Source: Lucinisca nassula (lineage: Eukaryota; Mollusca; Bivalvia; Lucinida; Lucinidae). From it: a stretch of DNA of 64,000 nt. This document shows, piece by piece, positions 4,791 to 45,420 of the stretch. Numbering within the stretch: position 1 is the first letter of the stretch; every line of letters starts with the position of its first letter. The notes under the pieces were generated by a model. The model had not been told where the DNA came from, made no database searches, and saw nothing but the letters and a program-made list of their open reading frames with translations. The position numbers were made by a program, and so were the translations under genes. The stretch covers positions 16,198,848 to 16,262,847 of the forward strand of contig OY757017.1 in the NCBI GenBank assembly GCA_963580285.1, given 5' to 3'.

Positions 4791-7700
4791 TTTATTAAAT
4801 AATCATTTGCCTCTATAATATGGTCATATTTCTTACTAAGGGTAGTTCTATTAGTCCGAGTCATGATTGAAACGAAAAATGTTAAACTGAAACATCGAGT
4901 CCATTATCTTGTGGATGGGGGTAAAGATATCCTGGCCAGTTTAGCTTTACCCCCGGGGGTAAAGATTCCCAGCTGGGATATCTTTACCCCCGCCTTTCCA
5001 CTCACCACCACCACCCATTTCACAACTGACAGGGATAATGCAAGATTATGAAAGATTGTCATCAGCAACATCAGAAACGAAAAATGTTAAACTGAAACAT
5101 CGAGTCCATTATCTTGTGGATGGGGGTAAAGATATCCTGGCCAGTTTAGCTTTACCCCCGGGGGTAAAGATTCCCAGCTGGGATATCTTTACCCCCCGCC
5201 TTTCCACTCACCACCACCACCCATTTCACAACTGACAGGGATAATGCAAGATTATGAAAGATTGTCATCAGCAACATTTTGAATAAGAACATATACAAAA
5301 AGAAGTTATTAAATAATCATTTGCCTCTATAATATGGTCATATTTCTTACAAAGGGTAGTTCTATTAGTCCGAGTCATGATTGAAACGAAAAATGTTAAA
5401 CTGAAACATCGAGTCCACTATCTTGTGGATGGGGGTAAAGATATCCTGGCCAGTTTAGCTTTACCCCCGGGGGTAAAAATTCCCAGCTGGGATATCTTTA
5501 CCCCCGCCTTTCCACTCACCACCACCACCCATTTCACAACTGACAGGGATAATGCAAGATTATGAAAGATTGTCATAAGCATCATTTTGAATAAGAAAAT
5601 ATACAAAAAGAAGTTATCAAATAATCATTTGCCTCTATAATATGGTCATATTTCTTACTAAGGGTAGTTCTATTAGTCCGAGTCATGATTGGAAACGAAA
5701 AATGTTGAAGTGAAACATCGAGTCCATTATCTTGATTCACTTACATATAAGAAGAAATTGGGCATTAAGAAATAGTTTATACCCAAAAAGTTATCCTGGC
5801 CAATTTAGCTTTACCCCCGGGGGTAAAGATATCCCAGCCGATCACAGCCGGGATATCTTTACCCCCGCTTTCCACTCACCACCACCACCCATTTCACAAC
5901 TGACAAGGATAATGCAAGAGTATGAAAGATTGTCATAAGCATCATTTTGAATTAGAAAATATGCAAAAAAGAAGTTATTAAATAATCATTTGCCTCTATA
6001 AAATGGTCATATTTCTTACTAAGGGTAGTTCTATTAGTCCGAGTCATGATTGAAACAAAAATGTTAAACTGAAACATCGAGTCCATTATCTTGTGGATGG
6101 GGGTAAAGATATCCTGGCCAGTTTAGCTTTACCTCCGGGGGTTAAGATTCCCAGCTGGGATATCTTTACCCCCGCCTTTCCACTCACCACCACCACCCAT
6201 TTCACAACTGACAGGGATAATGCAAGATTATGAAAGATTGTGATAAGCAACATTTTGAATAAGAAAATATACAAAAAGAAGTTATTAAATAATCATTTGC
6301 CTCTATAATATGGTCATATTTCGTACTTAGGGTAGTTCTATTAGTCCGAGTCATGATTGAAACGAAAAATGTTAAACTGAAACATCGAGTCCACTATCTT
6401 GTGGATGGGGGTAAAGATATCCTGGGCAGTTTAGCTTTACCCCCGGGGGTAAAGATTCCCAGCTGGGATATCTTTACCCCCGCCTTTGCACTCACCACCA
6501 CCACACATTTCACAACTGACAGGGAAAATGCAAGATTATGAAAGATTGTCATAAACAACATTTTGAATAAGAAAATATACAAAAAAGAATTTATTAAATA
6601 ATCATTTGCCTCTATAATATGGTCATATTTCTTACTAAGGGTAGTTATATTAGTCCGAGTCATGATTGAAACGAATAATGTTAAACTGAAACATCGAGTC
6701 CACTATCTTGTGGATTTGGGTAAAGATATCCTGGCCAGTTTAGCTTTACCCCCGGCGGTAAAGATTCCCAGCTGGGATATCTTTACCCCCGCCTTTCCAC
6801 TCACCACCACCACCAATTTCACAACTGACAGGGATAATGCAAGTTTATGAAAGATTGTCATAAGCATCATTTTGAATGAGAAAATATACAAAGAGAAGTT
6901 ATTAAATAATCATTTGCCTCTATAATATGGTCCTATTTCTAACTAAGGGTAGTTCTGTTAGTCCAAGTCATGATTGAAAAGAAAAATGTTGAAGTGAAAC
7001 ATCGAGTCCACTATCTTGCTTCACTTACATATAAGAAGAAATTGGGCATTAAGAAATAGTTTATACCCAAAAGTTGGGGTGGGGGTAAAGTTATCCTAGC
7101 CAGTTTAGCTTTACCCCCGGGGGTAAAGATATCCCAGCCGGGATATCTTTACCCCCGCCTTTCCACTCACCACCACCACCCATTTCACAACTGACAGGGA
7201 TAATGCAAGATTATGAAAGATTGTCATAAGCATCATTTTGAATAAGAAAATATACAAAAAGAAGTTATTAAATAATCATTTGCCTCTATAAAATGGTCAT
7301 ATTTCTTACTAAGGGTAGTTCTATTAGTCCGAGTCATGATTGAAACAAAAAATGTTAAAGTGAAACATCGAGTCCTCTATCTTGTTTCACTTACATATAA
7401 GAAGAAAATGGGCATTAAGAAAATAGTTTATACCCAAAAGATGAGGTTGGGGTAAAGATATCCTGGCCAGTTTAGCTTTACCCCAGCGAGTAAAGAAATC
7501 CCAGCCGGGATATCTTAAATTTACCCCCGCCTTTCCACTCACCACCACCACCCATTTCAAAACTGACAGGGATAATGAAAGATTAGGAAAGACTGTCCTA
7601 AGAATCATTTTGAATTAGAAAATATACAAAAAGAAGTTATTAAATAATCCTTTGCCTCTATAATATGGTCGTATTTCTTACCAAGGGTAGTTCTATTAGT

Positions 7701-7997
7701 CCGAGTCATGATTGAAATGAAAAATGTTAAAGGGAAACATCGAGTCCACTATCTTGCTTCACTTACATATAAGAAGAAATTGGGTATTAAGAAATAGTTT
7801 ATACCCAAAAGTTGGGGTGGGGGTAAAGATATCCTGGCTAGTTTAGCTTTACCTCCGGGGGCAAAGATATCCCAGCCCGGATATCTTTACCCCAGCCTTT
7901 CCACTCACCACCACCACCCATTTCACAACTGACAGGGATAGTTGAGATTATGAAAGATTGTCATAAGCATCACTTTGTATAAGAAAATATACAAAAG
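4790..7997 (-). repeat. Minus-oriented arm (left part) of ~310-365 bp units
   Basis: About ten units are marked by CACTCACCACCACCACCC near 4999, 5206, 5514, 5874, 6181, 6488, 6799, 7165, 7535 and 7905. Each translates to a recurrent frame of about 62 codons that is a by-product of repetition. The segment 6184-7997 is closely matched by 9802 to about 11300, on the far side of the PLE insert. Confidence 0.75.
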
Positions 7998-9803
7998 GAG
8001 CTGAAACCGACCGAACTTTGAAGTATTGCTGAACCGCCTAGGAAGATCTTAGCCTGCCCAGAAAAAAGTGCTGCGAATCAGACTATTAATAAGGGTATGG
8101 ATTTTATAGATTTGCCCAGTATCTTCCGTGAGAGATCGGTGCTTTTTTCCATTCCTGCTTATTTTCAAAATACTGAAACACCTATAATTTGCTATAAATA
8201 TAACAAACCTGTTAGATCTATCATTTTTAATTTCAATAAACTTGTTTCAGATCTTGATATTGATACTAATACTCCTGATTCATGTGATTGTAAAAACTCA
8301 AAGTATTGCTATCCTGCTGCTGGTCATGTAATTACTGGCAATTTGAAAATTATTCCTGATTCTAGGATAAGGAATATAATTTCTAAAGGACCAAAATATC
8401 GGTTTCCTTCTAAAATTGATTTCAGTAAATGTAGAGATGAAATCGCTGCTTCCTTGAATGTATTCGGTAATAAATGGTGTAAGCGAGAGTATGTTGAGCA
8501 TAAAGCCCTTAAGGACTGGAAACTTAGCATTTTAAAACTAGTGAATAAACGCATTTCTTTCTATTCTCAAAATACTAACTTATTACCTCCTAAGCCCAAG
8601 ACGTCTTTACGTCATCTTAAACTAGGTATTCAAGAATTTCATAAGAAATTTGTTTTGGCCCCTGCAGATAAGGCCGCTAACAACGTCGTCGTTGTGTGAC
8701 GGCTCCACTATGTTAACACGCTTAAGCAGGAGCTTGGTGGTACTAAGGCCTATGAACTTCAGCCTTTAGCTGAAGAGAGAGCTATAGTAGATAAACATGT
8801 TTGTCTTTCAGCCACCAAGTTTGCTGTGTGTGTTAACGAAGGCCAAGACAAGCTTCCTACGCTATACTGGTTACCAAAACTTCATAAAAAACCTTACAAA
8901 GCACGGTTTATTGCAAATTCTAGCTCTTGCACTACCACTGAACTTTCTAAATTATTAACTTCCTGTCTTACTGCTATTAAAACGCATGTAATTAAATATT
9001 GTGATAAAGTCTTTGAAAGATCAGGAAGAAATCTGTTTTGGTCTATAATAATTCGAATGAGGGTTTAAATAAATTGAAATCTTGACATTTTCGTGCTTCT
9101 AGTCTGTCTACCTACGATTTTTCCACTCTTTACACTACACTTCCTCATAATCTTATAAAAGAAAAGCTTAATGATTTAATTGAATGGGCTTTTCACACAG
9201 AAGATTCTCTCTATCTTGCATGTAATGTCAGAAATGCATTTTTCACTTCTAAAGAGCATAAGAATTATACACTTTGGTCATGTCAGAAAGTGTGTGATGC
9301 CCTCAACTTTCTACTTGACAATATTTATATTAGATTCGGTACTAAGTTATTTAGACAAATTGTGGGTATTCCGATGGGTACTAATTGCGCACCTCTTGTG
9401 GCTGATCTGTTCTTGTATTGTTAAGAAAGAGACTTCATTTTGTCGCTTTCCATTGATAACCAATCTGAAATTATTGAAGCTTTTAGCTCTACTTCTAGAT
9501 ATTTAGATGATTTATTAAATATTGATAATACCTATTTGATGGTTTGATCAGTCAGATTTACCCCCTAGAACTTCAGTTAAATAAAGCAAATTCTTCTGAT
9601 ACCGAGGCCCCGTTTTTGGATTTACATCTATCTATTGTAGATGGATTTGTTTCGTGCAAAATTTATGATAAACGCGATAACTTTGATTTTGAGATTGTAA
9701 ATTTTCCTTTTTTGGATGGTGATGTTCCTCGTGCGCCATCCTATGGCGTTTATATTTCGCAATTAATTCGATTTGCTAGAGTGTAGTCATGTAACTGACT
9801 TCA
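7998..9803 (+). pseudogene. Penelope-like element copy 1, 3'-truncated and broken
   Basis: A near-identical shorter copy of the element at 14591. The frame opening at ATG 8097 shows PLE reverse-transcriptase landmarks: FVLAPADKAANNVVVV, then LPTLYWLPKLHKKPYKARF, the B-motif VGIPMGTNCAPLVADL, and the active site YLDD near 9505. It is dead. There is an in-frame TGA at 8697, a frameshift near 9055, TGA near 9085, TAA near 9421, and a one-base deletion after YLDD. The copy stops abruptly at about 9803 inside the region after the RT domain, at a TTCA shared with the foldback repeat. Losing the 3' rather than the 5' end is not what target-primed reverse transcription normally leaves, so recombination is likely. 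Confidence 0.85.
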
Positions 9804-12028
9804 CCACCACCACCCATTTCACAACTGACAGGGATAATGCAAGATTATGAAAGATTGTGATAAGCAACATTTTGAATAAGAAAATATACAAAAAGAAGTT
9901 ATTAAATAATCATTTGCCTCTATAATATGGTCATATTTCCTACTCAGGGTAGTTCTGTTAGTCCGAGTCATGATTGAAACGAAAAATGTTAAACTGAAAC
10001 ATCGAGTCCACTATCTTGTGGATGAGGGTAAAGATATCCTGGCCATTTTAGCTTTACCCCTGGGGGTAAAGATTCCCAGCTGGGATATCTTTACCCCCGC
10101 CTTTGCACTCACCACCACCACCAATTTCACAACTGACAGGGATAATGCAAGTTTATGAAAGGTTGTCATAAGCATCATTTTGAATGAGAAAATATACAAA
10201 GAGAAGTTATTAAATAATCATTTGCCTCTATAATATGGTCATATTTCTAACTAAGGGTAGTTCTGTTAGTCCGAGTCATGACTGAAAAGAAAAATGTTGA
10301 AGTGAAACATCGAGTCCACTATCTTGCTTCACTTACATATAAGAAGAAATTGGGCATTAAGAAATAGTTTATACCCAAAAGTTGGGGTGGGGGTAAAGTT
10401 ATCCTGGCCAGTTTAGCTTTACCCCCGGGGGTAAAGCTATCCCAGCCGGGATATCTTTACCCCCGCCTTTCCACTCACCACCACCACCCATTTCACAACT
10501 GACAGGGATAATGCAAGATTATGAAAGATTGTCATAAGCATCATTTTGAATAAGAAAATATACAAAAAGAAGTTATTAAATAATCATTTGCCTCTATAAA
10601 ATGGTCATATTTCTTACTAAGGGTAGTTCTATTAGTCCGAGTCATGATTGAAACAAAAAATGTTAAAGTGAAACATCGAGTCCTCTATCTTGTTTCACTT
10701 ACATATAAGAAGAAAATGGGCTTTAAGAGAATAGTTTATACCCAAAAGATGAGGTGGGGGTAAAGATATCCTAGCCAGTTTAGCTTTACCCCAGCTAGTA
10801 CAGAAATCCCAGCCGGGATATCTTAAATTTACCCCCGCCTTTCCACTCACCACCACCACCCATTTCAAAACTGACAGGGATAATGAAAGATTAGGAAAGA
10901 TTGTCATAAGCATCATTTTGAATAAGAAAATATACAAAAAGAAGTTATTAAATAATCCTTTGCCTCTATAATATGGTCGTATTTCTTACCAAGGGTAGTT
11001 CTATTAGTCCGAGTCATGATTGAAATGAAAAATGTTAAAGTGAAACATCGAGTCCACTATCTTGCTTCACTTACATATAAGAAGAAATTGGGTATTAAGA
11101 AATAGTTTATACCCAAAAGTTGGGGTGGGGGTAAAGATATCCTAGCCAGTTTAGCTTTACCTCCGGGGGTAAAGATATCCCAGCCGGGATATCTTTACCC
11201 CCGCCTTTCCACTCGCCTCCACCACCAATTTCACAACTGACAGGGATAATTGAGATTATGAAAGATTGTCATAAGCATCACTTTGTATAAGAAAATATAC
11301 AAAAGGAAGTTATTAAATAATCATTTGCCTCTATAATATGGTTATATTTCTTACTAAGGGTAGTTCTATTAGTCCGAGTCATGATTGAAACGAAAAATGT
11401 TAAAGTGAAACATCGAGTCCAATATCTTGCTTCACTTACATGTAAGAAGAAATTGGGGATTAAGAAAATGGTTTATACCCAAACGTTGGGGGCGAAGATA
11501 TCCTGGCCAGTTCAGCTTTAACCCCGGGGGTAAAGATATCCCAGCCAGGATATCTTTACCCCCGCCTTTCCAGTCACCACCACCACCCATTTCACAACTG
11601 ACAGGGATAATGCAAGATTATGAAAGATTGTCATAAGCAACATTTTGAATAAGAAAATATACAGAAAAAAGTTATTAAATAATCATTTGTCTCTATAATA
11701 TGGTCATGTTTCTTACTAAGGGTAGTTCTATTAGTCCGAGTCATGATTGAAACTAAAAATGTTAAAGTGAAACATCGAGTCCACTATCTTGCTTCAGTTA
11801 CATATAAGAAGAAATTGGGTATTAAGAAAATAGTTTATACCCAAAATTTGGGGTGGGGGTAAAGATATCCTGGCCAGTTTAGCTTTACCCCCGGGGGTAA
11901 AGATATCCCAGCCAGGATATCTTTACCCCCGGGGGTCAAGATATCCAGGGTGGGGGTAAAGATATCCCGGGATATCCTTACCCCCGGGGGTAAAGCTACC
12001 CAGGGGTCAAGATAAACTGTGACAATAT
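9804..12028 (-). repeat. Minus-oriented arm (right part) and terminal inverted repeat
   Basis: Six further minus-oriented units (marker near 9804, 10108, 10476, 10846, 11212, 11573) end in the outer terminal inverted repeat at about 11950-12028. Distinctive variants such as GATTGTGATAAGCAAC (9852, compare 6237) show this block duplicates 6184-7997, with one unit fewer. Confidence 0.75.
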
Positions 12029-14590: not shown

Positions 14591-16805
14591 GAGCTGAAAC
14601 CGACCGAACTTTGAAGTATTGCTGAACCGCCTAGGAAGATCTAAGCCTGCCCAGAAAAAAGTGCTGCGAATCAGACTATTAATAAGGGTATGGATTTTAT
14701 AGATTTGCCCAGTATCTTCCGTGAGAGATCGGTGCTTTTTTCCATTCCTGCTTATTTTCAAAATACTGAAACACCTATAATTTGCTATAAATATAACAAA
14801 CCTGTTAGATCTATCATTTTTAATTTCAATAAACTTGTTTCAGATCTTGATATTGATACTAATACTCCTGATTCATGTGATTGTAAAAACTCAAAGTATT
14901 GCTATCCTGCTGCTGGTCATGTAATTACTGGCAATTTGAAAATTATTCCTTATTCTAGGATAAGGAATATAATTTCTAAAGGACCGAAATATCGGTTTCC
15001 TTCTAAAATTGATTTCAGTAAATGTAGAGATGAAATCGCTGCTTCCTTGAATGAAATCGGTAATCGATGGTGTAAGCGAGAGTATGTTGAGCATAAAGCC
15101 CTTAAGGACTGGAAACTTAGCATTTTAAAACTAGTGAATAAACGCATTTCTTTCTATTCTCAAAATACTAACTTATTACCTCCTAAGCCCAAGACGTCTT
15201 TACGTCATCTTAAACTAGGTATTCAAGAATTTCATAAGAAATTTGTTTTGGCCCCTGCAGACAAGGCCGCTAACAACGTCGTCGTTGTGTGACGGCTCCA
15301 CTATGTTAACACGCTTAAGCAGGAGCTTGGTGGTACTAAGGCCTATGAACTTCAGCCTTTAGCTGAAGAGAGAGCTATAGTAGATAAACATGTTTGTCTT
15401 TCAGCCACCAAGTTTGCTGTGTGTGTTAACGAAGGCCAAGACAAGCTTCCTACGCTATACTGGTTACCAAAACTTCATAAAAAACCTTACAAAGCACGGT
15501 TTATTGCAAATTCTAGCTCTTGCACTACCACTGAACTTTCTAAATTATTAACTTCCTGTCTTACTGCTATTAAAACGCATGTAATTAAATATTGTGATAA
15601 AGTCTTTGAAAGATCAGGAAGAAATCTGTTTTGGTCTATAAAAACTTCGAATGAGGTTTTAAATAAATTGAAATCTAGACATTTTCGTGCTTCTAGTCTG
15701 TCTACCTACGATTTTTCCACTCTTTACACTACACTTCCTCATAATCTTATAAAAGAAAAGCTTAATGATTTAATTGAATGGGCTTTTCACACAGAAGATA
15801 CTCTCTATCTTGCATGTAATGTCAGAAATGCATTTTTCACTTCTAAAGAGCATAAGAATTATACACTTTGGTCATGTCAGAAAGTGTGTGATGCCCTCAC
15901 CTTTCTACTTGACAATATTTATATTAGATTCGGTACTAAGTTATTCAGACAAATTGTGGGTATTCCGATGGGTACTAATTGCGCACCTCTTGTGGCTGAT
16001 CTGTTCTTGTATTGTTATGAAAGAGACTTCATTTTGTCGCTTTCCATTGATAACCAATCCGAAATTATTGAAGCTTTTAGCTCTACTTCTAGATATTTAG
16101 ATGATTTATTAAATATTTTTTGATGGTTTGATCAGTCAGATTTACCCCCTAGAACTTCAGTTAAATAAAGCAAATTCTTCTGATACCGAGGCCCCGTTTT
16201 TGGATTTACATCTATCTATTGTAGATGGATTTGTTTCGTGCAAAATTTATGATAAACGCGATAACTTTGATTTTGAGATTGTAAATTTTCCTTTTTTGGA
16301 TGGTGATGTTCCTCGTGCGCCATCCTATGGCGTTTATATTTCGCAATTAATTCGATTTGCTAGAGTGTGTAGTCATGTAACTGACTTCAACACTCGTAAT
16401 AAATTATTAGCGGCTAAACTCCTTAATCAGGGTTATCGGTACCATAAACTACGCAAAGCCTTTTCAAAATTTTATAGACGTCATTCTGATTTAATTTCAA
16501 AATTCAATATTGGACTTAAATCTCTTCTGCAACAAGGTCTATCGGAACCCGAATTTTATGGTGACTTAGTATATAAATTCAGAAAAATATATAACCGCAA
16601 TGACTTCAGCACCCAATTTCGTAAAATCATTCTTCGATATAAAAAGATTGGGTACAACATGGATATTATACGACAGACTGCATGCATGGTAATTAACCCA
16701 ATCACGGTTGGCAACTTTGCTTCCCTCTTTAATTGCACGCCGGTGGGTCAGGCCTCAGATTCTATGACGGCTCCAACGTAAAGGCTTATTGAAAATTAGA
16801 GAGAT
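14591..16805 (+). mobile_element. Penelope-like retroelement copy 2 (coding part)
   Basis: A longer PLE copy. Its first 95 bp are a plus-strand piece of the headless SINE-like repeat, present identically in copy 1. Coding runs in three blocks: 14690-15292, 15293-16123 and 16128-16781. Landmarks in order are the N-terminal PLE region with FVLAPADKAANN, RT motifs with LPTLYWLPKLHKKPYKARF, the B-motif VGIPMGTNCAPL, the YLDD active site (about 16095), and the thumb/C-terminal region to a natural stop at 16781. No GIY-YIG endonuclease is seen downstream, so the copy belongs to an endonuclease-lacking or N-terminal-endonuclease type, or is 5'-truncated. Confidence 0.85.
14690..16781 (+). pseudogene. 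PLE reverse transcriptase ORF, one stop and one frameshift
   Basis: Reverse transcriptase that would copy element RNA at the target site. Two lesions interrupt it: a TGA at 15290-15292 within the motif after NNVVVV, and an 11 bp deletion just after YLDDLLNI near 16115 that shifts frame. Otherwise the protein would be about 700 residues with all RT motifs visible. The TGA is shared with copy 1 but the deletion is not, so the stop predates the split of the two copies. The frame also stays open upstream of ATG 14690 into the SINE-derived segment, so the true start is uncertain. Confidence 0.85.
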
Positions 16806-17438
16806 AATGTTGGTTGGTGCCTGATGCTCTGTCTCTGGTCGGGCTCTTCGGAGTCGAACTGTTGGTTTTCTTTTGCTCCAGCATTTCTGTGGTTTCTTGC
16901 TGTCGAGCCCTCACCGTTGTCTCACCTCTGTGGTTCTTTGATTTTTGTGTTCACGGAGATGTTGCACTGATGAGTTAGGAGGCCTTCATGCGGACTGAAC
17001 AAATTATTTGTCTAAATCGCGACGGAAGTAAGGGCGAGGATTGTGGCCACGTAAAATCGATTTAAGCCCCCCATTGGAAATCTTCCACTGACCGTTCCAA
17101 GGCGGCTCTTCTGTGGCGATTTATTTATGTTGTTGTTGTTACTTACTGTGTGTATCACTTGTGTCTTTTGGTTTTGGATGGCCATATGGCCATTTTGTGG
17201 GAAAGTAACTGTCCTTATGGCCTTCCTTTGTTTAGGTTTCCATTATGGTCTGGTCGCTTAATGTTTGTATTTCTTTCCCTTTGGTGTCTTTTATGGGTGG
17301 AGTAAGTTAATTGTATCAATTCCTGATCATTGTTTTACTTCTACTTTGTATCTTAAACCTCGGCAGTTTCTTTGAGCGGTACCTCCGCAAAAACCTGAAA
17401 TTTGCAATCCTTTTGTATATCTTTCTGGATCACAATAT
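16806..17438 (+). other. Probable PLE 3' untranslated region
   Basis: No coding. The sequence follows directly after the PLE stop and ends at the next transposon boundary (17438). It is GT-rich and has no A-tail or hammerhead core: a CTGATGAG at about 16968 lacks the matching GAAA. Assignment to the PLE rests on adjacency only. Confidence 0.4.
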
Positions 17439-18729: not shown

Positions 18730-18789
18730 AAATAAAAATCTAAAATGAGATCCTTTAAGAGCAATGAAAACATTCATAAGAAAGAAGAT

Positions 18790-18835
18790 GGGTCATACTT
18801 AGTAGTTTCGGCTAATAAAGCCTCATCAGTGACCC
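18790..18835 (-). ncRNA. Hammerhead ribozyme A1 (type I)
   Basis: Read on the minus strand: stem I strand GGGUCA, core CUGAUGA, stem II GGCU/AGCC, core GAAA, short stem III ACU/AGU with a 4-nt loop, cleavage triplet GUA, then UGACCC closing stem I with six pairs. All invariant core bases are present. The predicted cut lies between 18795 and 18796. Confidence 0.88.
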
Positions 18836-19172
18836 TGTAATGATCCGGCAACAAGAGCCAGAGGAAGCATACTGCACTTTTGCGAATTTCGAATAGGCAG
18901 TCGATTCAAAGACTGATATAAATCAAAATTGGGTCCAAATAATTAAAAACCTGTCTAGAATATGAGTCTAAACCAATAATTTATTTCTGATTTCTCAGAA
19001 TATTCACGCTGATCTCAAAGGACCAAAAGTAAAATATAAACTGCACTATGGTTGATGTACGGGGAGACGTTTTACGGCCGCCACACGGCACAACACCAGC
19101 TGCAGTGAAGGCAAATAAAAATCTAAAATGAGATCCTTTAAGAGCAATGAAAACATTCATAAGAAAGAAGAT

Positions 19173-19218
19173 GGGTCATACTACGTAGTTTCGGCTAATA
19201 AAGCCTCATCAGTGACCC
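19173..19218 (-). ncRNA. Hammerhead ribozyme A2 (type I)
   Basis: Same core and stem I as A1. Stem III here is ACUA/UAGU, four pairs with a 2-nt loop, so the loop end differs from A1 while pairing is kept. The predicted cut lies between 19178 and 19179, 383 nt from the A1 site. Confidence 0.9.
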
Positions 19219-19499
19219 TGTAATGATCCGGCAACAAGAGCCAGAGGAAGCATACTGCACTTTTGCGAATTTCGAATAGGCAGCTCTTTTTTGACAAAAT
19301 TGCAGCATTAGCAACTTTGACATTTCATACTTCAGTCTGCAGGATCCTGGGTACAGACTGGCAATTAGAATATTGCCAAAGACAGTAAATTGTATAAAAC
19401 ATATTTCTGGTATATAACTTTAGACAGTATAATATGAGCTCAGCGTAGATCTAGAGTTTTGTAAAAGCTATACTGCATTAACCATATTCGTTCGTTTGG

Positions 19500-22654: not shown

Positions 22655-22659
22655 AATAT

Positions 22660-23370
22660 AATTGTAAAAGAAACTGATTAGTAAAACGTCAAGTATTGAG
22701 TGGAAATAAAGAACACCACTCTCGGCTTATCAGATACAATAGCTCCCATCGAATGCACCAGCAAAATCTTTTAACAACTCAGTCTGTAACTGGTGGCAGG
22801 TCACTTAGTAGTCATGAAGTTTTTGAACAGAAAATATTGCAATCTGTGCTTGGGCTCAAGAACAATAAACAACGACCCATCAACGTTATGACTTTGTTTC
22901 GCTCCTTAAATATTTTATATAGTTGGAAGAGTTAGAAGGTTCGATCTTGGCACTGATGTTAATTCTAGTAGCAACGACATGAAAATGTTTTTACACACCC
23001 AGCGATATTTGTTATGTTTGGTTTTACGATCCTTTCAAGATTATTTCATTCACATCAAGCCGATCGTTAATCAGAGGTGAGCGAAAACTGGAGTACCCGA
23101 TGAAAACCCCCCTGACCTTCCGTTGCAGAACTTCTCATTATGTGACCTGAGCCATGCTCAAAACTACAGCGTTGAGAGACCTAATGATTAAGAGTCAGCA
23201 CTCTTATCTAGGCCCGTTACACCCAGCGATCTTTATAAATGAGGAAAATAACGTTCTCTGTCTTTCCAACATTTACATAATAACTATACGTATTTTTAGA
23301 GCTATCAGCGAACCGAAAGCTGTTCAGAATATATAAATCTGTTCCTATCTGTGTGAAGTAAACTTTGCAA
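22660..23370. other. Intergenic, nothing recognised
   Basis: No domain-bearing frame, RNA gene or clear repeat was recognised. Near 23160-23220 a stretch resembling CTTAATCATTAGGTCTTTC (seen again at 35590, opposite strand) suggests one more dispersed repeat. Confidence 0.3.
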
Positions 23371-23680
23371 GTTTTGTTTATTTGTATTTAACGGCCCAGT
23401 CAACACTGATTTACGTCATGTCTGGGCCTGTCAGTGTACCTATCCATGCTTTTCCTGAGCAGGCTTATCCGTAAGCGGTTTACCAGTTCAGTACACATTC
23501 TGTCGCCCAAAACTGACCCCTGCCCTTCCTGAATCAGCGGAAGGGAGAGAACGATCATAGAAAAGATTTCATAATCAATCTCCACGAAAGAATGTTGCCG
23601 ACCCCGGTAGGTATCGAACCCGAGTCTTCCTTATCACCAGTCAGACTGCATCCATTGAGCTACCACAGCCAGCCACACTT
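23371..23680 (-). repeat. tRNA-headed SINE, minus-strand copy
   Basis: Read on the minus strand: a tRNA-like head with A box TGGTAGCTCAATGG and B box GGTTCGATACC, then the conserved body (CTCTCCCTTCCGCTGATTCA) and a tail ending TTGACTGGGCCGTTAAAT plus A-rich sequence. It is the same family as 27838. ACTTTG near both ends may be part of a target duplication. Confidence 0.75.
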
Positions 23681-24036
23681 TGTGAGTAGTAGTAGTTATG
23701 TTCTGTTGTTTTTCGTTTCCATGGCCCCATGGACTTACTCCATAATGGCATTGCAAGACGTAAAATTTGCGAAAATGACTGCGGCTGTTATAAGTTCCCC
23801 ATAAGGGAAATAGGTACACCTTAAGGGGTAGGGGCCACTCCTGCAAAAGTAGTTTCTCTTTGGATATGTCTAAGGGGTATACTCTTAAAGGAAAGAATTT
23901 GCTCCTGGGGAGCAAAACTTCCCTTTTACAGTAGACCCCTTTTTCAGTTGGACAGCGCCAACAGAGTAGCAACCATAAGGTCCTTAAAGTTGTATTTCCA
24001 TCACGAAATCATACCTATAGAATTGTGATCCCCTTT
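23681..24036. other. Intergenic, nothing recognised
   Basis: Frames exist on both strands but show no family features. Confidence 0.3.
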
Positions 24037-24116
24037 AATATGTTCTATAAAAGGGTTATCCTTTGGAAGCAAGGAATACACCACAGAACTGAAAAAATGG
24101 TGTGAACATGTTTTCT

Positions 24117-24162
24117 GGGCCAGACTAGCTAGTTTCGGCCAATTAGGCCTCATCAGTGACCC
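24117..24162 (-). ncRNA. Hammerhead ribozyme B1 (type I)
   Basis: Minus strand: stem I GGGUCA pairs with UGGCCC (six pairs, one U-G); core CUGAUGA; stem II GGCC/GGCC with loop UAAUU; core GAAA; stem III ACUA/UAGU; cleavage after the canonical GUC. The predicted cut lies between 24122 and 24123. Every invariant hammerhead nucleotide is present. Confidence 0.92.
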
Positions 24163-24377
24163 TAAGATATTATCAAACTTCCACAATGGAATCAATGATC
24201 CCAAAGGACAAGAAAATATAATCTACACTATGATGTAGGACAAGGAGACGTTTTACCGCCGCCACACATTCCCATACACCAGTTGAAGTGAAGTTAAATA
24301 TGTTCTATAAAGGGGCTATCCTTTGGAAGCAAGGAATACACCACAGAACTGAAAAATATGGAGTGTACATGTTTTCT

Positions 24378-24423
24378 GGGCCAGACTAGCTAGTTTCGGC
24401 CAATTAGGCCTCATCAGTGACCC
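24378..24423 (-). ncRNA. Hammerhead ribozyme B2 (type I)
   Basis: Identical to B1 over the whole catalytic core and all three stems. The predicted cut lies between 24383 and 24384. Confidence 0.92.
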
Positions 24424-24499
24424 TCAGATATTTTCAAAATTCCACAATGGAATCAATGATCCCAAAAGTCAAGAAAATATAATCTTCACTTTCATATAG

Positions 24500-24714
24500 T
24501 AAAGCAAGGGTTTAAAGGGTATACATTAATTTCCGTATTCATGCTCTGAGACACTGGATTGTAGGTACTAGATAGAATTGCCTCGTCGAGGCGTTTCTGT
24601 CGACTCACCGCAATCTATGTTTTGGGCAAAAAAATATTCCAATTTTTCTTTTTAAAATTTCTTTTTCTTTGACCAAAAAATGACAATGTATTTGTATAGG
24701 TGTGTTTCGAAATA
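24500..24714. repeat. Hairpin MITE copy, diverged
   Basis: A central foldback (GATTGTAGG ... CAATCTATG, with GCCTCGTCGAGGC) plus a right end TGTATAGGTGTGTTTCG, like the family at 35024-35289. Confidence 0.55.
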
Positions 24715-25217
24715 AGGTAAAAATGGTAGACTAACTGCCACACCTGCCAGGTGAATACATTTCCCTTAAGATTTTTATTGTTGGAGTTGGAACGCTTGCT
24801 TTTCGGTCTGTTTCGCTTTTCAGACAGGCTGTGTCCTGTAATTGCAGTAAAGTATTGCATCATCGTTAAGGCTGATTGGTTGATCGCGTCACGTGCCCCT
24901 CCATGGAACAGTTACAAACTGGTCATTAGACCCGGTTTGCCCGCCTCATGGCGACCAAACCAATAATAATTGCACCCAAGGATGAATCGACCCGATTTTG
25001 TGATGCGGTAGTAAGCGCAACGTTATCGGTATTAGTAGATTGGTCTCCCTTGGTTTATTTGTAACGCATCACCTTATACATGTTATAAACAGTCGAACTT
25101 CGATGGCTCGAACCGCTTTGGGACCATGAAAATGTTTTCGAGCCACTGAAGGTAACTGCCAAGAGGCATACCGAGATACTTTTGAACATCTGTCGATGTT
25201 ATATAATGAAAATGTTT
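24715..25217. other. Intergenic, nothing recognised
   Basis: No supported feature. Confidence 0.3.
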
Positions 25218-31652: not shown

Positions 31653-31697
31653 ATATCTTCAACCAGTCAAGCGCAGCTTTTGTGGCCATTCTTGGAT

Positions 31698-32987
31698 ATG
31701 GGTCGTACATGGGAATCCGTGCTGGCATTCTTTACACTTGTTTTGACTTCTTCAGTTTATGTATTGTATGTTTTCCTCCAAAAACTAGTGACTGTCATTA
31801 ATAGTGGAATTAATATTTTTATATACGGTAAAACCCACTCGTATGGGAAGACAGCACAATATGGTCGAGTATTATGGAAACGAAAGATTTCCATGTTTCA
31901 AACGTCCTCTTCAATGGATTTCCTTTGCCTTTATTTGTCTCGTGTAGAATCAGACTATGTGCTTCGACCCAATGTGTCTCTTTACTGTGTTTCAAAACAT
32001 GAAGCAATCTTCGTTGAAACCCCAGAAAACCTCAATATTTACAAGTCAGATGAAAATCCTTTTTTGTACCTGGCGCAGTACAATCGAAGCACCAGTATCA
32101 TAAAAATGGCTATGGAAACATTTCACTCAATATCTGAAATGATTGGCGATCCGTTAGTCCCGGTAATCTGGCTGTCCAACACTGGGCGATGTGGCTCAAC
32201 CATGTTAAGTCAGATCTTCGAAGCAGTTCCTGGAACATTAGTTCTGTCTGAACCTGATGCACCTCTGAAAGTGTGTGACTTGCAGTCTTTGAATGAAGTT
32301 TCTAAGAGGGAATTTGACGACATCCTGCGTTCTACAGTTCGAAGCTTGTGCAAACCTCGTGCCAACACGGAAAGAATATTCGTGAAAACGCGTTCAGTCT
32401 GTGCCTCATTGATGACGTCATTGTCTGATTTATTTCCAAAACATGTCATACAAATGTTCATGTATAGGAACTGTTATGATTCCGTAGCTTCTTGGGGTCC
32501 GTCTATGGGCGTAACACCGTATGGTATACTAGTCCGAGCATGCGCAGACAACGAACTACTTTCTTCTGTGATGCCGTTCTTCCGGAAGCAGTTCCGATTT
32601 GAAATACAGTGCAAACTAAATGATTCACCCGATATTCCACTCACCAACACATACGAACAGATAATCCATATGTGGGCTAATTTCATGATTTTGGCACGTG
32701 ACGCGATGTCACGTGACAAATATATTTTGGCCGTTAAATATGAGGACATAGTATCTAACCCACAAGGAGTCATAAAAACAATATTTATTCGCCTGGGGAT
32801 AGACCTGACATACATGCAGAGAGCTACACAGTCACTTGAAAGGGATTCTCAAAGAGGTTCGGCAATCAGCGGCAGACGACTTAAAAATGACCCTCGTCGC
32901 CATATTTCTGATGAAAACAGAAAAATAGCAGACGCCATACTATCAAGTTATAATTTACCACGTATGGGTGAAAAGTTCGCACTGTGA
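31698..32987 (+). CDS. Sulfotransferase-like type II membrane protein
   Basis: Predicted to move a sulfuryl group from PAPS to an acceptor, probably a glycan or lipid in the Golgi; substrate unknown. The 429 residues start at the first in-frame ATG. A short N-terminus precedes one hydrophobic segment (about residues 6-34), a signal anchor giving type II topology. The P-loop-like 5'-phosphosulfate motif TGRCGST is at about 162-168. The 3'-phosphate-binding motif YRNCYDSVASW is at about 256-266, with the expected Arg and Ser. The catalytic part is uninterrupted. A polypyrimidine tract with AG at 31651-31652 suggests a spliced 5' leader exon; the frame is open from that acceptor, so a few more N-terminal residues are possible. 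Fold call solid, substrate not. Confidence 0.8.
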   Translation: MGRTWESVLAFFTLVLTSSVYVLYVFLQKLVTVINSGINIFIYGKTHSYGKTAQYGRVLWKRKISMFQTSSSMDFLCLYLSRVESDYVLRPNVSLYCVSKHEAIFVETPENLNIYKSDENPFLYLAQYNRSTSIIKMAMETFHSISEMIGDPLVPVIWLSNTGRCGSTMLSQIFEAVPGTLVLSEPDAPLKVCDLQSLNEVSKREFDDILRSTVRSLCKPRANTERIFVKTRSVCASLMTSLSDLFPKHVIQMFMYRNCYDSVASWGPSMGVTPYGILVRACADNELLSSVMPFFRKQFRFEIQCKLNDSPDIPLTNTYEQIIHMWANFMILARDAMSRDKYILAVKYEDIVSNPQGVIKTIFIRLGIDLTYMQRATQSLERDSQRGSAISGRRLKNDPRRHISDENRKIADAILSSYNLPRMGEKFAL

Positions 32988-37400: not shown

Positions 37401-40400
37401 GGATATTCAGATGTGTATTCGAACACACATCTAGAATAAACATCCAGGTGTGTATTCAGATGTGTATTCGAACGCACATCCAGATTAAACATCCAGGTGT
37501 GTATTCAGATGTGTATTCGAACACACATCTAGAATAAACATCCAGGTGTGTATTCAGATGTGTATTCGAACGCACATCCAGAATAAACATCCAGGTGTGT
37601 ATTCAGATGTGTATTCGAACGCACATCCAGAATAAACATCCAGGTGTGTATTCAGATGTGTATTCGAACACACATCCAGATTAAACATCCAGGTGTGTAT
37701 TCAGATGTGTATTCGAACACACATCTAGAATAAACATCCAGGTGTGTATTCAGATGTGTATTCGAACGCACATCCAGAATAAACATCCAGGTGTGTATTC
37801 AGATGTGTATTCGAACGCACATCCAGAATGAACATCCAGGTGTGTATTCAGATGTGTATTCGAACGCACATCCAGAATAAACATCCAGGTGTGTATTCAT
37901 ATGTGTATTCGAACGCACATCTAGAATAAACATCCAGGTGTGTATTCAGATGTGTATTCGAACGCACATCCAGAATGAACATCCAGGTGTGTATTCAGAT
38001 GTGTATTCGAACGCACATCTAGAATGAACATCCAGGTGTGTATTCAGATGTGTATTCGAACGCACATCCAGAATGAACATCCAGGTGTGTATTCAGATGT
38101 GTATTCGAACGCACATCCAGAATAAACATCCAGGTGTGTATTCAGATGTGTATTCGAACGCACATCCAGAATGAACATCCAGGTGTGTATTCAGATGTGT
38201 ATTCGAACGCACATCCAGAATAAACATCCAGGTGTGTATTCATATGTGTATTCGAACGCACATCTAGAATAAACATCCAGGTGTGTATTCAGATGTGTAT
38301 TCGAACGCACATCCAGAATGAACATCCAGGTGTGTATTCAGATGTGTATTCGAACGCACATCTAGAATGAACATCCAGGTGTGTATTCAGATGTGTATTC
38401 GAACGCACATCCAGAATGAACATCCAGGTGTGTATTCAGATGTGTATTCGAACGCACATCCAGATTAAACATCCAGGTGTGTATTCAGATGTGTATTCGA
38501 ACGCACATCCAGAATAAACATCCAGGTGTGTATTCAGATGTGTATTCGAACGCACATCCAGAATGAACATCCAGGTGGGTATTCAGATGTGTATTCGAAC
38601 GCACATCCAGAATAAACATCCAGGTGTGTATTCATATGTGTATTCGAACGCACATCTAGAATAAACATCCAGGTGTGTATTCAGATGTGTATTCGAACGC
38701 ACATCCAGAATGAACATCCAGGTGTGTATTCATATGTGTATTCGAACGCACATCTAGAATGAACATCCAGGTGTGTATTCAGATGTGTATTCGAACGCAC
38801 ATCCAGAATGAACATCCAGGTGTGTATTCAGATGTGTATTCGAACGCACATCCAGATTAAACATCCAGGTGTGTATTCAGATGTGTATTCGAACGCACAT
38901 CCAGATTAAACATCCAGGTGTGTATTCATATGTGTATTCGAACGCACATCTAGAATGAACATCCAGGTGTGTATTCAGATGTGTATTCGAACGCACATCT
39001 AGAATGAACATCCAGGTGTGTATTCAGATGTGTATTCGAACGCACATCCAGAATGAACATCCAGGTGTGTATTCAGATGTGTATTCGAACGCACATCTAG
39101 AATAAACATCCAGGTGTGTATTCAGATGTGTATTCGAACGCACATCCAGAATAAACATCCAGGTGTGTATTCATATGTGTATTCGAACGCACATCTAGAA
39201 TAAACATCCAGGTGTGTATTCAGATGTGTATTCGAACGCACATCCAGAATGAACATCCAGGTGTGTATTCAGATGTGTATTCGAACGCACATCCAGATTA
39301 AACATCCAGGTGTGTATTCAGATGTGTATTCGAACGCACATCCAGAATAAACATCCAGGTGTGTATTCAGATGTGTATTCGAACGCACATCCAGAATGAA
39401 CATCCAGGTGGGTATTCAGATGTGTATTCGAACGCACATCCAGAATAAACATCCAGGTGTGTATTCATATGTGTATTCGAACGCACATCTAGAATAAACA
39501 TCCAGGTGTGTATTCAGATGTGTATTCGAACGCACATCCAGAATGAACATCCAGGTGTGTATTCATATGTGTATTCGAACGCACATCTAGAATGAACATC
39601 CAGGTGTGTATTCAGATGTGTATTCGAACGCACATCCAGAATGAACATCCAGGTGTGTATTCAGATGTGTATTCGAACGCACATCCAGATTAAACATCCA
39701 GGTGTGTATTCAGATGTGTATTCGAACGCACATCCAGATTAAACATCCAGGTGTGTATTCATATGTGTATTCGAACGCACATCTAGAATGAACATCCAGG
39801 TGTGTATTCAGATGTGTATTCGAACGCACATCTAGAATGAACATCCAGGTGTGTATTCAGATGTGTATTCGAACGCACATCCAGAATGAACATCCAGGTG
39901 TGTATTCAGATGTGTATTCGAACGCACATCTAGAATAAACATCCAGGTGTGTATTCAGATGTGTATTCGAACGCACATCCAGAATAAACATCCAGGTGTG
40001 TATTCATATGTGTATTCGAACGCACATCTAGAATAAACATCCAGGTGTGTATTCAGATGTGTATTCGAACGCACATCTAGAATGAACATCCAGGTGTGTA
40101 TTCAGATGTGTATTCGAACGCACATCTAGAATGAACATCCAGGTGTGTATTCAGATGTGTATTCGAACGCACATCCAGAATGAACATCCAGGTGTGTATT
40201 CAGATGTGTATTCGAACGCACATCCAGAATGAACATCCAGGTGTGTATTCAGATGTGTATTCGAACGCACATCCAGAATGAACATCCAGGTGTGTATTCA
40301 GATGTGTATTCGAACGCACATCCAGATTAAACATCCAGGTGTGTATTCAGATGTGTATTCGAACGCACATCCAGATTAAACATCCAGGTGTGTATTCAGA

Positions 40401-43235
40401 TGTGTATTCGAACGCACATCCAGAATAAACATCCAGGTGTGTATTCAGACGTGTATTCGAACGCACATCCAGAATTAACATCCAGGTGTGTATTCAGATG
40501 TGTATTCGAACACACATCTAGAGTAAACATCCAGGTGTGTATTCAGATGTGTATTCGAAGGCACATCCAGAATAAACATCCAGGTGTGTATTCAGACGTG
40601 TATTCGAACGCACATCCAGAATAAACATCCAGGTGTGTATTCAGACGTGTATTCGAACGCACATCCAGAATAAACATCCAGGTGTGTATTCAGATGTGTA
40701 TTCGCACACACATCTAGAATAAACATCCAGGTGTTTATTCAGACGTGTATTCGAACGCACATCTTGAATAAACATCCAGGTGTGTATTCAGTGTGTATTC
40801 AGACGTGTATTCGAACGCACATCCAGAATAAACATCCAGGTGTGTATTCAGATGTGTATTCGAACGCACATGGAGAATGAACATCCAGGTGTGTATTCAG
40901 ACGTGTATTCGAACGCACATCTAGAATAAACATCCAGGTGTGTATTCAGATGTGTATTCGAACGCACATCCAGAATAAACATCCAGGTGTGTATTCATAT
41001 GTGTATTCGAACGCACATCTAGAATAAACATCCAGGTGTGTATTCAGATGTGTATTCGAACGCACATCCAGAATGAACATCCAGGTGTGTATTCAGATGT
41101 GTATTCGAACGCACATCCAGATTAAACATCCAGGTGTGTATTCAGATGTGTATTCGAACGCACATCCAGAATAAACATCCAGGTGTGTATTCAGATGTGT
41201 ATTCGAACGCACATCCAGAATGAACATCCAGGTGGGTATTCAGATGTGTATTCGAACGCACATCCAGAATAAACATCCAGGTGTGTATTCATATGTGTAT
41301 TCGAACGCACATCTAGAATAAACATCCAGGTGTGTATTCAGATGTGTATTCGAACGCACATCCAGAATGAACATCCAGGTGTGTATTCATATGTGTATTC
41401 GAACGCACATCTAGAATGAACATCCAGGTGTGTATTCAGATGTGTATTCGAACGCACATCCAGAATGAACATCCAGGTGTGTATTCAGATGTGTATTCGA
41501 ACGCACATCCAGATTAAACATCCAGGTGTGTATTCAGATGTGTATTCGAACGCACATCCAGATTAAACATCCAGGTGTGTATTCATATGTGTATTCGAAC
41601 GCACATCTAGAATGAACATCCAGGTGTGTATTCAGATGTGTATTCGAACGCACATCTAGAATGAACATCCAGGTGTGTATTCAGATGTGTATTCGAACGC
41701 ACATCCAGAATGAACATCCAGGTGTGTATTCAGATGTGTATTCGAACGCACATCTAGAATAAACATCCAGGTGTGTATTCAGATGTGTATTCGAACGCAC
41801 ATCCAGAATAAACATCCAGGTGTGTATTCATATGTGTATTCGAACGCACATCTAGAATAAACATCCAGGTGTGTATTCAGATGTGTATTCGAACGCACAT
41901 CTAGAATGAACATCCAGGTGTGTATTCAGATGTGTATTCGAACGCACATCTAGAATGAACATCCAGGTGTGTATTCAGATGTGTATTCGAACGCACATCC
42001 AGAATGAACATCCAGGTGTGTATTCAGATGTGTATTCGAACGCACATCCAGAATGAACATCCAGGTGTGTATTCAGATGTGTATTCGAACGCACATCCAG
42101 AATGAACATCCAGGTGTGTATTCAGATGTGTATTCGAACGCACATCCAGATTAAACATCCAGGTGTGTATTCAGATGTGTATTCGAACGCACATCCAGAT
42201 TAAACATCCAGGTGTGTATTCAGATGTGTATTCGAACGCACATCCAGAATAAACATCCAGGTGTGTATTCAGACGTGTATTCGAACGCACATCCAGAATT
42301 AACATCCAGGTGTGTATTCAGATGTGTATTCGAACACACATCTAGAGTAAACATCCAGGTGTGTATTCAGATGTGTATTCGAAGGCACATCCAGAATAAA
42401 CATCCAGGTGTGTATTCAGACGTGTATTCGAACGCACATCCAGAATAAACATCCAGGTGTGTATTCAGACGTGTATTCGAACGCACATCCAGAATAAACA
42501 TCCAGGTGTGTATTCAGATGTGTATTCGCACACACATCTAGAATAAACATCCAGGTGTTTATTCAGACGTGTATTCGAACGCACATCTTGAATAAACATC
42601 CAGGTGTGTATTCAGTGTGTATTCAGACGTGTATTCGAACGCACATCCAGAATAAACATCCAGGTGTGTATTCAGATGTGTATTCGAACGCACATGGAGA
42701 ATGAACATCCAGGTGTGTATTCAGACGTGTATTCGAACGCACATCTTGAATAAACATCCAGGTGTGTATTCAGATGTGTATTCGAAGGCACATCCAGAAT
42801 AAACATCCAGGTGTGTATTCAGATGTGTATTCGAAGGCACATCCAGAATAAACATCCAGGTGTGTATTCAGACGTGTATTCGAACGCACATCCAGAATAA
42901 ACATCCAGGTGTGTATTCAGATGTGTATTCGAACGCACATCGAGAATGAACATCCATGTGTGTATTCAGACGTGTATTCGAAGGCACATCTTGAATAAAC
43001 ATCCAGGTGTGTATTCAGATGTGTATTCGAACGCACATCCAGAATAAACATCCAGGTGTGTATTCAGACGTGTATTCGAACGCACATCTTGAATAAACAT
43101 CCAGGTGTGTATTCAGATGTGTATTCGCACACACATCTAGAATAAACATCCAGGTGTGTATTCAGACGTGTATTCGAACGCACATCTTGAATAAACATCC
43201 AGGTGTGTATTCAGTGTGTTCAGACGTGTATTCGA
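37401..43235. repeat. 49 bp satellite array, left part (~119 units)
   Basis: Head-to-tail 49 bp units containing AACATCCAGGTGTGTATTCA and GTGTATTCGAACGCACATC. Units differ at a few diagnostic sites (CCAGAAT/CTAGAAT/TTGAAT; CAGATG/CATATG/CAGACG). Higher-order structure is visible. A 17-unit block repeats (marker GGTGGGTATTCAG at about 38575 and 39408), and a 1824 bp block repeats (38.9-40.9 kb against 40.8-42.7 kb). The 1824 bp equals 37 units plus an 11 bp insertion. Frames of up to 78 codons are by-products. Confidence 0.95.
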
Positions 43236-45420
43236 CACTGTTTTTCAGTATATAGGTCCATTCCATAATTTCTATGTTTTAAAACCAGCTATAACAAAAA
43301 CTTCTCCTTTTTGGGCCTCAAACGATCAAGAAATATTTAATTCTTAAGAAGAATGTACTTTTTACTGTTTTGAAACAAATTTACCTCCAAAATAAACAAA
43401 AGATGGCATAAAATTCTAACCTTCGTTACTGTCGCCGTCAATTATGTACATGTTAAAACTACAATATTACATAAATACTTGTGTTTGGCAGTATCATATG
43501 TATGTGTATATCTTAGCATGGTTATTCTTCCTTGAAAAAAAAATGCTTTAGGCAATTAAGAGCTGACAGGTTCCGTATATTATGAGATCGAGTTGGTGTC
43601 GCCGAATTTTGCATTTTCCTAAATCTTTCGTTACTGCCCTTTTGTCACTGATAAAAATAGACAAATTTTTGTACCATAATCATTTTTATCAATTGTCTTC
43701 GTTTTATCATCATACTTCTGACGACTAAACACCTGAGATAAACAGTAAAATCGAAAGTACGGCATATGTACATCTTAAGATAGAATGTCTGTAACGAAAA
43801 GTAAATCGTCAAACCTTCGTGAGCACACACTATTCTATAAATGAAAACAATAATTCAAATTATCCTTTTTAAATATAACAACCTCCAAATATCAATGAAA
43901 AAATGCATTTCTTAGTTATACAATGAGAATGTTTAATTTTTAACGCACTGTTACCTGTGTGCTTTTAACCTACGTTACTAAAACCTTCGTGATGCATTTT
44001 CGAAAAATAATGTTCGTATTTGCCTAGCTCCTTATTAGCTTTGTATATTATGACGTCATCAGTAAATTTAATACCAGGAGGCATTTAAAAGCCACCCGCT
44101 ATATTGTATGTTTACAAAAGGTAGAAGAACAGGCATTGACAGCTTCAGAATACCAAAGGTGAGTTGTTTAAAGTTATCAGTGTTGTTTCCAAAGATTTAT
44201 TTTCGATGTCACTTTTTACATACTTTAAAATGGATGTTTCACTTTGCTAAAGAATCAGTTTTGCGATTGTGACGCAATATATGACTTGAAACGTAATTAA
44301 AACGAATTAAACCTTCGTTACGAGTTGGTAACGAAGGTTTTGATCATTTAAATGAGTTTGAAATTTCATTTTGCACAATTGTATCCAAGCAAATAAGCAT
44401 TTAAACTAAAAGCCAAGTGATATAGTATATAACATTTTAAAAAGAGATCGCATAAGGCACTTTTTGTAGACAAAGTATACCTAAGAAGTTTTCAGAAATT
44501 TTAGCTTCACATTAATGTTCATATATTACATTCCATACTTACCCAAAACTATTCTGCACGACAAAAGTTACTTGGCTGGGCCTTAAAAATCTATTTACTT
44601 CTTTTAGGGGGCTATTGACACCATCAGGAGATCTGGCTTTGTCTTGAAAGGTCATAGCTTTTAGTAACGAAGGTTAGAAAAAAATAACGAAGGTTTTATC
44701 TATTTCAGACCGACAATGCCAAAGAGTAGAGCAGAAATCAAAATTGCATACAGTCAGAGAATGAAAGAAAAAGACAAAAGTTGTTGCTAAAGTCGTCGTG
44801 TTTGTTTTATATAACGTTTGTCAGTTTTTGTTAAACCTTCGATACATTTTAACACTTTTCTATATATCCACGTAAAGGAAACTAACGTCGTTGAAACATC
44901 CCGAAATTTATTTCAATGTAACAAGACAATAACATTTGACAATTTCATATGTAGATTTCTGTTTAGTTTTATTCATTTTTGCTGTATCTTATTTGAAACA
45001 TGCTGCTTTTAAATAAAATAGCAAATGAAGAAGCAGCATGAAACTTCAATATTTTCACTACACATAAATCTTGAAAGAAATAACTGAAAACGTTTAAAGT
45101 TGCGTTTTATTTAAAATAAAAATAATCATCTGTGAAATAAAGGGTATAGAAAGTGTTTAAAACTGATTTTTATCAATTCAATGCCCCCAAAATAACCCAA
45201 CATGCAGACAACGAAGGTTTTATGTCACATTTTTGAACTTTTGACAGCTTACTTTAACAGTGTGTTACTCGAAAACAGACAAAGTGTTGCATTCAATAAT
45301 TTTGCAGTAAGTACTTCGATTATAGTTTGATCAGTTGTTGGTATTTGCTGGTTAATCTGAAAAACTTCACTTTTTTGTTCTTTGCAACCAAGCAATGGAC
45401 CTATATACTGAAAAACAGTG
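43236..45420. mobile_element. 2.2 kb CACTA/EnSpm-type transposon in the satellite
   Basis: Perfect 27 bp inverted ends beginning CACTGTTTTTCAGTATATAG, 3 bp target duplication CGA at 43233-43235 and 45421-45423, and restoration of the satellite unit when the insert is removed. The motif AACCTTCGTTAC or its complement recurs at about 43420, 43625, 43810, 43965, 44312, 44325, 44660, 44685, 44833 and 45210. CACTG ends, a 3 bp duplication and subterminal repeats in both orientations fit the CACTA (EnSpm) superfamily. No transposase is present, so it is a non-autonomous derivative. Confidence 0.88.
44716..44790 (+). pseudogene. Remnant 5' coding exon of the parent transposon
   Basis: After a good acceptor (CTATTTCAG at 44708) the ATG at 44716 opens a 24-residue frame beginning MPKSRAEIKIAYSQRMKEKD, a basic N-terminus of a type often found at the start of transposon-encoded proteins. 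It runs into a stop at 44790. A donor-like AAAG|GTGAGT at about 44158-44163, after a TATATTGTATG stretch, may be the end of the preceding leader exon. The reading is that the internal deletion removed the rest of the gene. Confidence 0.4.

Follow-up and report, generated by a model that had tools for sequence, protein, structure and literature searches.

The 64,000-nt stretch of the Lucinisca nassula genome analysed here (the window; contig OY757017.1, positions 16,198,848 to 16,262,847, forward strand) carries a hammerhead retrozyme dimer on its minus strand, family A, which we assign on good grounds to the metazoan non-LTR retrozymes as a fresh family of a kind already known. The main value of family A is its insertion map, which points to one mechanism: the family is probably a non-autonomous animal retrozyme whose RNA circle is copied into the genome by target-primed reverse transcription beginning at a single internal site, as the junctions and lengths of its genomic copies indicate.

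The two type I hammerheads reported in the first-pass annotation of the window stood up to a check of the sequence, being identical over 46 nt, 261 nt apart on the minus strand and complete in their core bases, and the cuts predicted for them (24383/24384 and 24122/24123) are correctly placed (Table 1). The direct repeat around them is real: one stretch of 147 nt matches at 92% with a spacing of 261, another of 63 nt at 95% with a spacing of 260, and the repeat extends from 24034/24037 to 24499; the boundaries of the insertion are those over which stand-alone loci L029-L048 match the window (24037..24499) and outside of which, in its flanks, they do not. The unit position at which the inserted copy ends, 87, recurs inside the full unit at 24297. 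The A unit has 261 nt, a G+C content of 41% and a longest stop-to-stop reading of 51 aa, and the circular fold of its consensus is predicted at -69.7 kcal/mol with 66% of bases paired. Stem III, given four pairs in the first pass, is more than a simple hairpin, its ten bases forming a perfect palindrome. The predicted energy of this palindrome is +1.5 kcal/mol when folded on itself (3 bp, 4-nt loop) and -13.7 kcal/mol as a 10-bp self-duplex, and because the self-duplex is far more stable, family A likely acts through a dimeric ribozyme, to go by these modelled energies. Rfam gave no match at the window hammerheads at gathering score; weak matches below it were to Hammerhead_3 (22.3 bits), HH9 (17.6) and RAGATH-1 (19.7), scores that are presumably low because helix III is tiny.

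Table 1. Coordinates of the retrozymes and associated elements in the window.
Feature	Position	Strand	Remarks
Upstream type I hammerhead A, perfect	24378..24423	-	cut between 24384 and 24383
Downstream type I hammerhead A, perfect, identical to upstream one	24117..24162	-	cut between 24123 and 24122
Retrozyme A insertion	24037..24499	-	one full 261-nt unit between a 116-nt 5' part and a 3' part of about 87 nt
Full A unit	24123..24383	-	predicted 261-nt self-cleaved RNA or circle
3' terminus of inserted A copy	24037	-	unit position 87
Hairpin domain just 3' of start point	24224..24292	-	unit about 92-160; conserved with family B
Retrozyme family B	18730..19283	-	5' partial unit, full 383-nt unit, 66-nt 3' partial unit
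Family B hammerhead, intact	19173..19218	-	cut between 19179 and 19178
Family B hammerhead, two changes in stem III	18790..18835	-	cut between 18796 and 18795
Element with broken RT reading resembling Penelope-like RTs	14591..17348	+	fixed 3' end 17348
Larger LINE-like repeat carrying the retrozyme as antisense passenger	22655..24967		flanks common to L002-L028

Scanning the 2.93 Gb genome with the 46-mer of the A ribozyme (<=3 mismatches) returned 42,571 sites (21,359 + 21,212), and the same scan with the reversed 46-mer as control returned 0, so that the window dimer being a unique fossil with no dimers elsewhere, the outcome named beforehand as refuting, is excluded. The identification as a retrozyme was likewise borne out, the element belonging to the animal kind. 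The first-pass annotation was right about the A dimer and missed a second dimer in the window, of the related family B (Table 1), whose ribozyme has 30,491 genome sites (15,299 + 15,192; control 0). The two 46-mers differ at seven places and the counts therefore do not overlap, giving together 73,062 ribozyme sites, about 25 per Mb. The stems are conserved from A to B: pair 4 of stem II is changed on both sides (C-G to U-A), a U-G pair of stem I is U-A in B, and helix III, with CG in place of the central GC, remains palindromic. In an alignment of 48 of the 52 distinct A and B ribozymes, standard pairs filled 93.9% of the cells of 14 stem pairs, a figure lifted somewhat by the exclusion of four broken or 5'-truncated ribozymes, compared with 17-42% when the partners were slid by 1-3 columns. 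The aligned rows are related to one another; in shuffle controls on them the covariation score was above 500 of 500 shuffles, and neither the number of two-sided-change pairs (1 observed vs 1.6 expected) nor that of pair types (13 observed vs 13.1 expected) was above the shuffles.

The unit of family B has 383 nt, a G+C content of 38% and a longest stop-to-stop reading of 46 aa, and its consensus is predicted to fold as a circle at -91.1 kcal/mol. Near 5.15 Mb on contig C1, five perfect B ribozymes stand at exact 383-nt spacing, an array that would suggest very recent activity of the family. B copies end at unit 65-67 in seven of nine cases (the other two being a later insertion and a locus edge), and this end aligns with the A end to within one or two bases. 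The segment beside the start point is the part that A and B have most clearly in common after the ribozyme, and in both circular folds the start point adjoins a hairpin domain, that of A being listed in Table 1. The consensus fold of the wider segment has 33 pairs, of which 22 are the same in A and B, seven have one-sided and four two-sided changes and none is broken, counts that lean in favour of the structure since it was derived from the same two sequences. We infer that the hairpin domain at unit 92-160 is the structure recognised by the reverse transcriptase, and propose it as such.

The best genome matches of the A unit could not serve as typical copies, as L009-L028 are all one nested family, and stand-alone loci were sampled anew. 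Perfect ribozymes taken in order along contig C1 yielded 20 loci of about 10 kb; a second batch of 20 took 746 bases each from sites at which just one perfect ribozyme is listed, and its lengths are therefore biased to short copies. The first 20 loci lack the window flanks and the second 20 include one nested host copy (L052), which was left out of the end statistics together with L038, two old fragments merged by the aligner. The 3' end is in view in 33 of the 40 loci and the 5' end in 37. Of the visible 3' ends, 32 of 33 fall at unit position 86-91 (the remaining one at 72), typically after ..GAACATATT and not at the ribozyme cut; this modifies the first-pass reading, in that integrated copies do not run from cut to cut. 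The 5' ends spread over unit 8-258 with a hotspot at 146-154 that holds 11 of the 37, a number reached in 0 of 20,000 simulations over the whole unit and also in 0 of 20,000 within the range allowed to single-unit copies by the selection for a perfect ribozyme. Complete copies (n=32) measure 142-1753 nt, or 0.5 to 6.8 units, 11 of them being shorter than one unit, and their lengths cluster at 198-204 nt (five copies) and 463-468 nt (three copies), i.e. 203 + 261n, a series that the window copy (463 nt) fits with n = 1.

All six arrays with at least two full units are more homogeneous internally (differences of 1.0-14.7) than in comparison with one another (17.8-29.8). The two units of L046 share seven variants and differ from each other at one place, and the six full units of array L034 are 0.4-1.5% from the consensus (L037, 0.8%; L044, 1.1%). 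To judge from these sequences, recent activity does exist in family A elsewhere than in the window copy. Locus L039 also contains old retrozyme copies in minus sense (1015-1438 and 3671-3939), about 75% identical to A and perhaps of an older family, the second of which sits in an RT-element reading.

Empty sites were looked for at 45 junctions (31 + 14), and 17 were readable by eye. CTT lies directly before the junction in 11 of the 17 (e.g. GACTT, GGCTT, CACTT; a single repeat family contributes three of the 11), two are ambiguous (L053, L041-B2) and four have TTT, ATT or CTC. In L037 an A copy was inserted in a family B ribozyme at GGCTT, its 5' side not being B sequence. RCTT stands at the 5' flank of 12 of 41 A copies against a null of 6.6% (nominal p 9e-6, for a motif picked after part of the flanks had been seen) and of one of eight B copies. 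A preference for sites ending in TT could result simply from the TT that is common to target and copy at the 3' junction. Few or no target bases are lost on insertion, and no target duplication above the cross-locus null was found in 21 copies or, in a second test, in 18 copies. Two apparent duplications were rejected: that of 64 nt in L041 is a tandem repeat that served as target, and the 9-nt match 30 nt downstream of L046 copy 2 falls within the null.

Target-primed reverse transcription, as in R2 and LINEs, typically leaves a fixed internal end, 5' ends that vary and short microhomology. In the mechanism proposed for family A, multimeric transcripts would be cut by dimeric hammerheads and a host ligase would circularise the 261-nt product. 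The hairpin at unit 92-160 would be bound by a reverse transcriptase, which would be primed by a genomic end nicked at a CTT site and terminating in AA; copying would start opposite unit 87-90 and make 0.5 to 6.8 laps of the circle, and the enzyme, still holding the hairpin, would tend to stall at its far side (unit 146-154), so that copies of about 203 + 261n nt result, the window copy having n = 1. The template is most simply a circle, since copies run unbroken through several cut sites and their fixed end lies away from the ribozyme cut, and homogeneous arrays are expected because one circle would template an array.

The copy ends could also be those of a linear RNA, starting near unit 146-154 and ending near 87 (or of multimers of it), that is retroposed in the manner of a SINE by a LINE or PLE enzyme, the ribozymes being incidental or only trimming. 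The 5' hotspot and fixed 3' end would then be the two ends of the RNA, a TTTT run lies about 12 nt before the end, and PAc, the Poseidon element of Anolis, inserts in vitro without need for ribozyme cleavage, according to excerpts of its description (PMC11167929). The junctions inspected have no poly(A) tail, however, multi-unit copies would require long transcripts escaping several ribozymes, and near-identical units with array-specific variants, as in L046, are less natural for an old multi-unit source; we consider this course of events unlikely. Tandem units and homogeneous arrays would also be accounted for by ordinary satellite DNA that spreads through unequal exchange or DNA circles and never as RNA. 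This agrees poorly with tens of thousands of sites, with 11 of 32 complete copies below one unit, with one fixed 3' end beside ragged 5' ends, with clean empty sites and with a ribozyme stem pair that A and B both retain through a change on both sides, and is strongly disfavoured, to the point of being barely credible.

Target-primed copying of a circle concerns the family as a whole; the window copy itself lies antisense in a larger LINE-like repeat, and its flanks are shared, over about 22655-24967, in 20 of 20 loci from the top of the match list (L009-L028). Because these flanks are shared, the window copy must have multiplied within the larger repeat, the retrozyme having landed antisense in the LINE-like element once and then been multiplied along with it. 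The recent activity that the first-pass annotation read from the perfect ribozymes accordingly does not apply to this copy, whose 5' partial unit differs by 8% from its full unit, a distance that makes the insertion old. The left edge of the repeat at 22655 is the point where the window diverges from other LINE-like copies, and the true left end may lie elsewhere. On the right, locus C678 (L004, L011) continues past the edge into a reading with a CCHC knuckle, which has no Pfam match, and L020 on C12 has the same first 25 bases past the edge; a stretch beyond it in C678 reads by eye like the start of an APE endonuclease. That the window ribozymes are maintained because the LINE-like host uses them, for instance in trimming an antisense transcript, would agree with the dimer standing at the same place in the host copies and with both window ribozymes being perfect, but it is highly improbable given that just 11 of 41 ribozymes are perfect in the nested copies L009-L028 (24 of 41 with <=1 change), a rate that does not suggest special upkeep and that is not comparable with the one in the stand-alone sample, which was selected for a perfect ribozyme.

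As mobiliser of the circle, the RT element of the window (Table 1) is a weak candidate. Its Penelope-like class is assigned tentatively from motifs, its score with Pfam RVT_1 is below cut-off (15.6 of 29.6 bits), and its two window copies (7998-9807 and 14591-17348, plus strand) are 98% identical over 1.8 kb and have broken frames. Elsewhere in the genome the element occurs as 5'-truncated copies whose 3' end, fixed at 17348, is U-rich, and CTT occurs in three of six readable targets (one more is ambiguous). It was rejected as a proven partner, RCTT being at the 5' flank of 3 of 24 copies, two of which are one copy in overlapping loci, and comparison with A and B gave no convincing similarity (best E 0.031). 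Locus L041 was considered as a template switch between the RT element and family B and set aside, since its junctions fit a 5'-truncated RT element inserted in a B array at CTT. By eye, the 11 bases TTGCCTTCACT were noted immediately ahead of the 3' end in several copies of the RT element (L036 and L042 among them) and also immediately past the start point of family B (unit 64-74). The genome further contains GIY-YIG Penelope-like elements, several with open frames of 763-820 aa among 138 matches listed, and three pairs with a period of about 3.8-4.0 kb (C6:100216705-100220969, C6:63493014-63497094 and C5:145336487-145340768) are consistent with a head-to-tail arrangement. None of the three junctions read from these matches (L069-L071) gave a hammerhead in a scan needing a CTGANGA-type core plus stems, which minimal hammerheads could escape, and comparison with A and B gave no convincing similarity, the best value (E 0.015) being a 16-nt match in L072, which lies inside a reading frame and is not a junction.

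Comparison with known systems draws on excerpts of the papers cited. Metazoan non-LTR retrozymes have type I hammerheads, tandem units of 170-400 nt, G+C below 50%, arrangements from dimers to multimers and no LTRs (PMC7229834), all of which are found in A and B. Their target duplications, when present, exceed 4 bp (PMC7229834); family A, with no LTR-type ends and no 4-bp target duplication, fits them. Amphibian members have a weak palindromic helix III that favours dimeric action (PMC7229834), like the palindrome of A, and the newt and axolotl hammerhead satellites resemble the families here in this helix, in a dimeric ribozyme, which is likely here, and in great abundance, with 126,247 motifs counted in axolotl, whereas their unit is 330-350 bp and those of A and B are 261 and 383 nt (PMC7229834). 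Differences from the members described in the excerpts of PMC7229834 are the fixed insertion end, start point and target motif, which are visible here and unmapped there, the density of about 25 ribozymes per Mb and the presence of one copy inside a LINE-like repeat. Plant LTR retrozymes have a circular RNA life cycle like that predicted for A, share the ribozyme dimer with it, and differ in type III ribozymes, LTRs, PBS and 4-bp target duplications (PMC7229834, PMC7761336); A was rejected as a plant-type LTR retrozyme on its type I topology and ragged 5' ends. For family A, the circle, the ligase and the enzyme would follow by analogy, supported by RNA blots and circle clones from other animals (PMC7229834).

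Metazoan retrozymes coexist with PLEs (PMC7229834), which are also in the genome here, and PLEs were proposed in 2020 as candidate mobilisers of retrozymes (Cervera & de la Pena, PMC7229834). In PAc, a Penelope-like element, reverse transcription starts internally, 111-118 nt into the ORF, with the hammerhead cut at 26, so that the start lies 85-92 nt downstream of the cut, and genomic copies end there (Frangieh 2024; PMC11167929). The corresponding distance is 86-91 nt in A and 65-67 nt in B. PAc cleavage favours AT-rich DNA, chiefly ATT (PMC11167929). Compared with the excerpts of that paper, the start-site sequence differs and the TT shared at the retrozyme 3' junction is set down as a further difference, and PAc encodes an RT plus GIY-YIG whereas the retrozymes here encode nothing. 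One Penelope insertion has microhomology and lacks a duplication, and others have 8-10-bp duplications, according to passages of PMC3846280. Family A was rejected as an autonomous PLE, its unit being non-coding and an RT plus GIY-YIG frame being absent from the element; the likeness of A and B to PLEs would be one of working, not of membership, and A may work with a PLE.

More generally, and with somewhat less than even confidence, animal retrozymes could be RNA-circle satellites of Penelope-type reverse transcriptases, with a protein-bound hairpin setting a fixed start 65-90 nt past the cut and an enzyme that copies in laps until it reaches that hairpin once more. If this is true, the number of laps can be read from the genome, and hammerhead and start site, given the spacing shared with Poseidon, would form a single module, either inherited from PLEs or captured from them. 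A fixed start, lap lengths and a CTT preference are definite, testable predictions, and 73,062 ribozyme sites in two families let the return of circular ribozyme RNAs to the genome be read from junctions. No earlier integration map of animal retrozymes was found among open-licence PMC papers, which is not proof of absence.

The COX1 of this genome reads cleanly with the invertebrate mitochondrial code, and among the 120 matches listed of 7,999 one is at 93% and the others, from molluscs and insects alike, are at 67-71%. Other features of the window include repeats of about 366 nt with GGGGGTAAAGATATCC-type palindromes around the first RT-element copy (1420-11946) and a satellite with a 49-nt unit and about 220 copies over 10.9 kb (37404-48290), in which Rfam miRNA matches are far below gathering score. 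A 444-aa open frame at 31653-32987 (plus strand) resembles a sulfotransferase, with a Pfam score just under cut-off. An open frame of 2141 aa at 54011-60436 (minus strand) has no Pfam match and includes a 53-residue repeat present about 23 times (159-nt unit, 93% matches). At 61532-63997 there are blocks of a tandem repeat with a 105-nt unit, and GTTCCCG-type simple repeats lie nearby.
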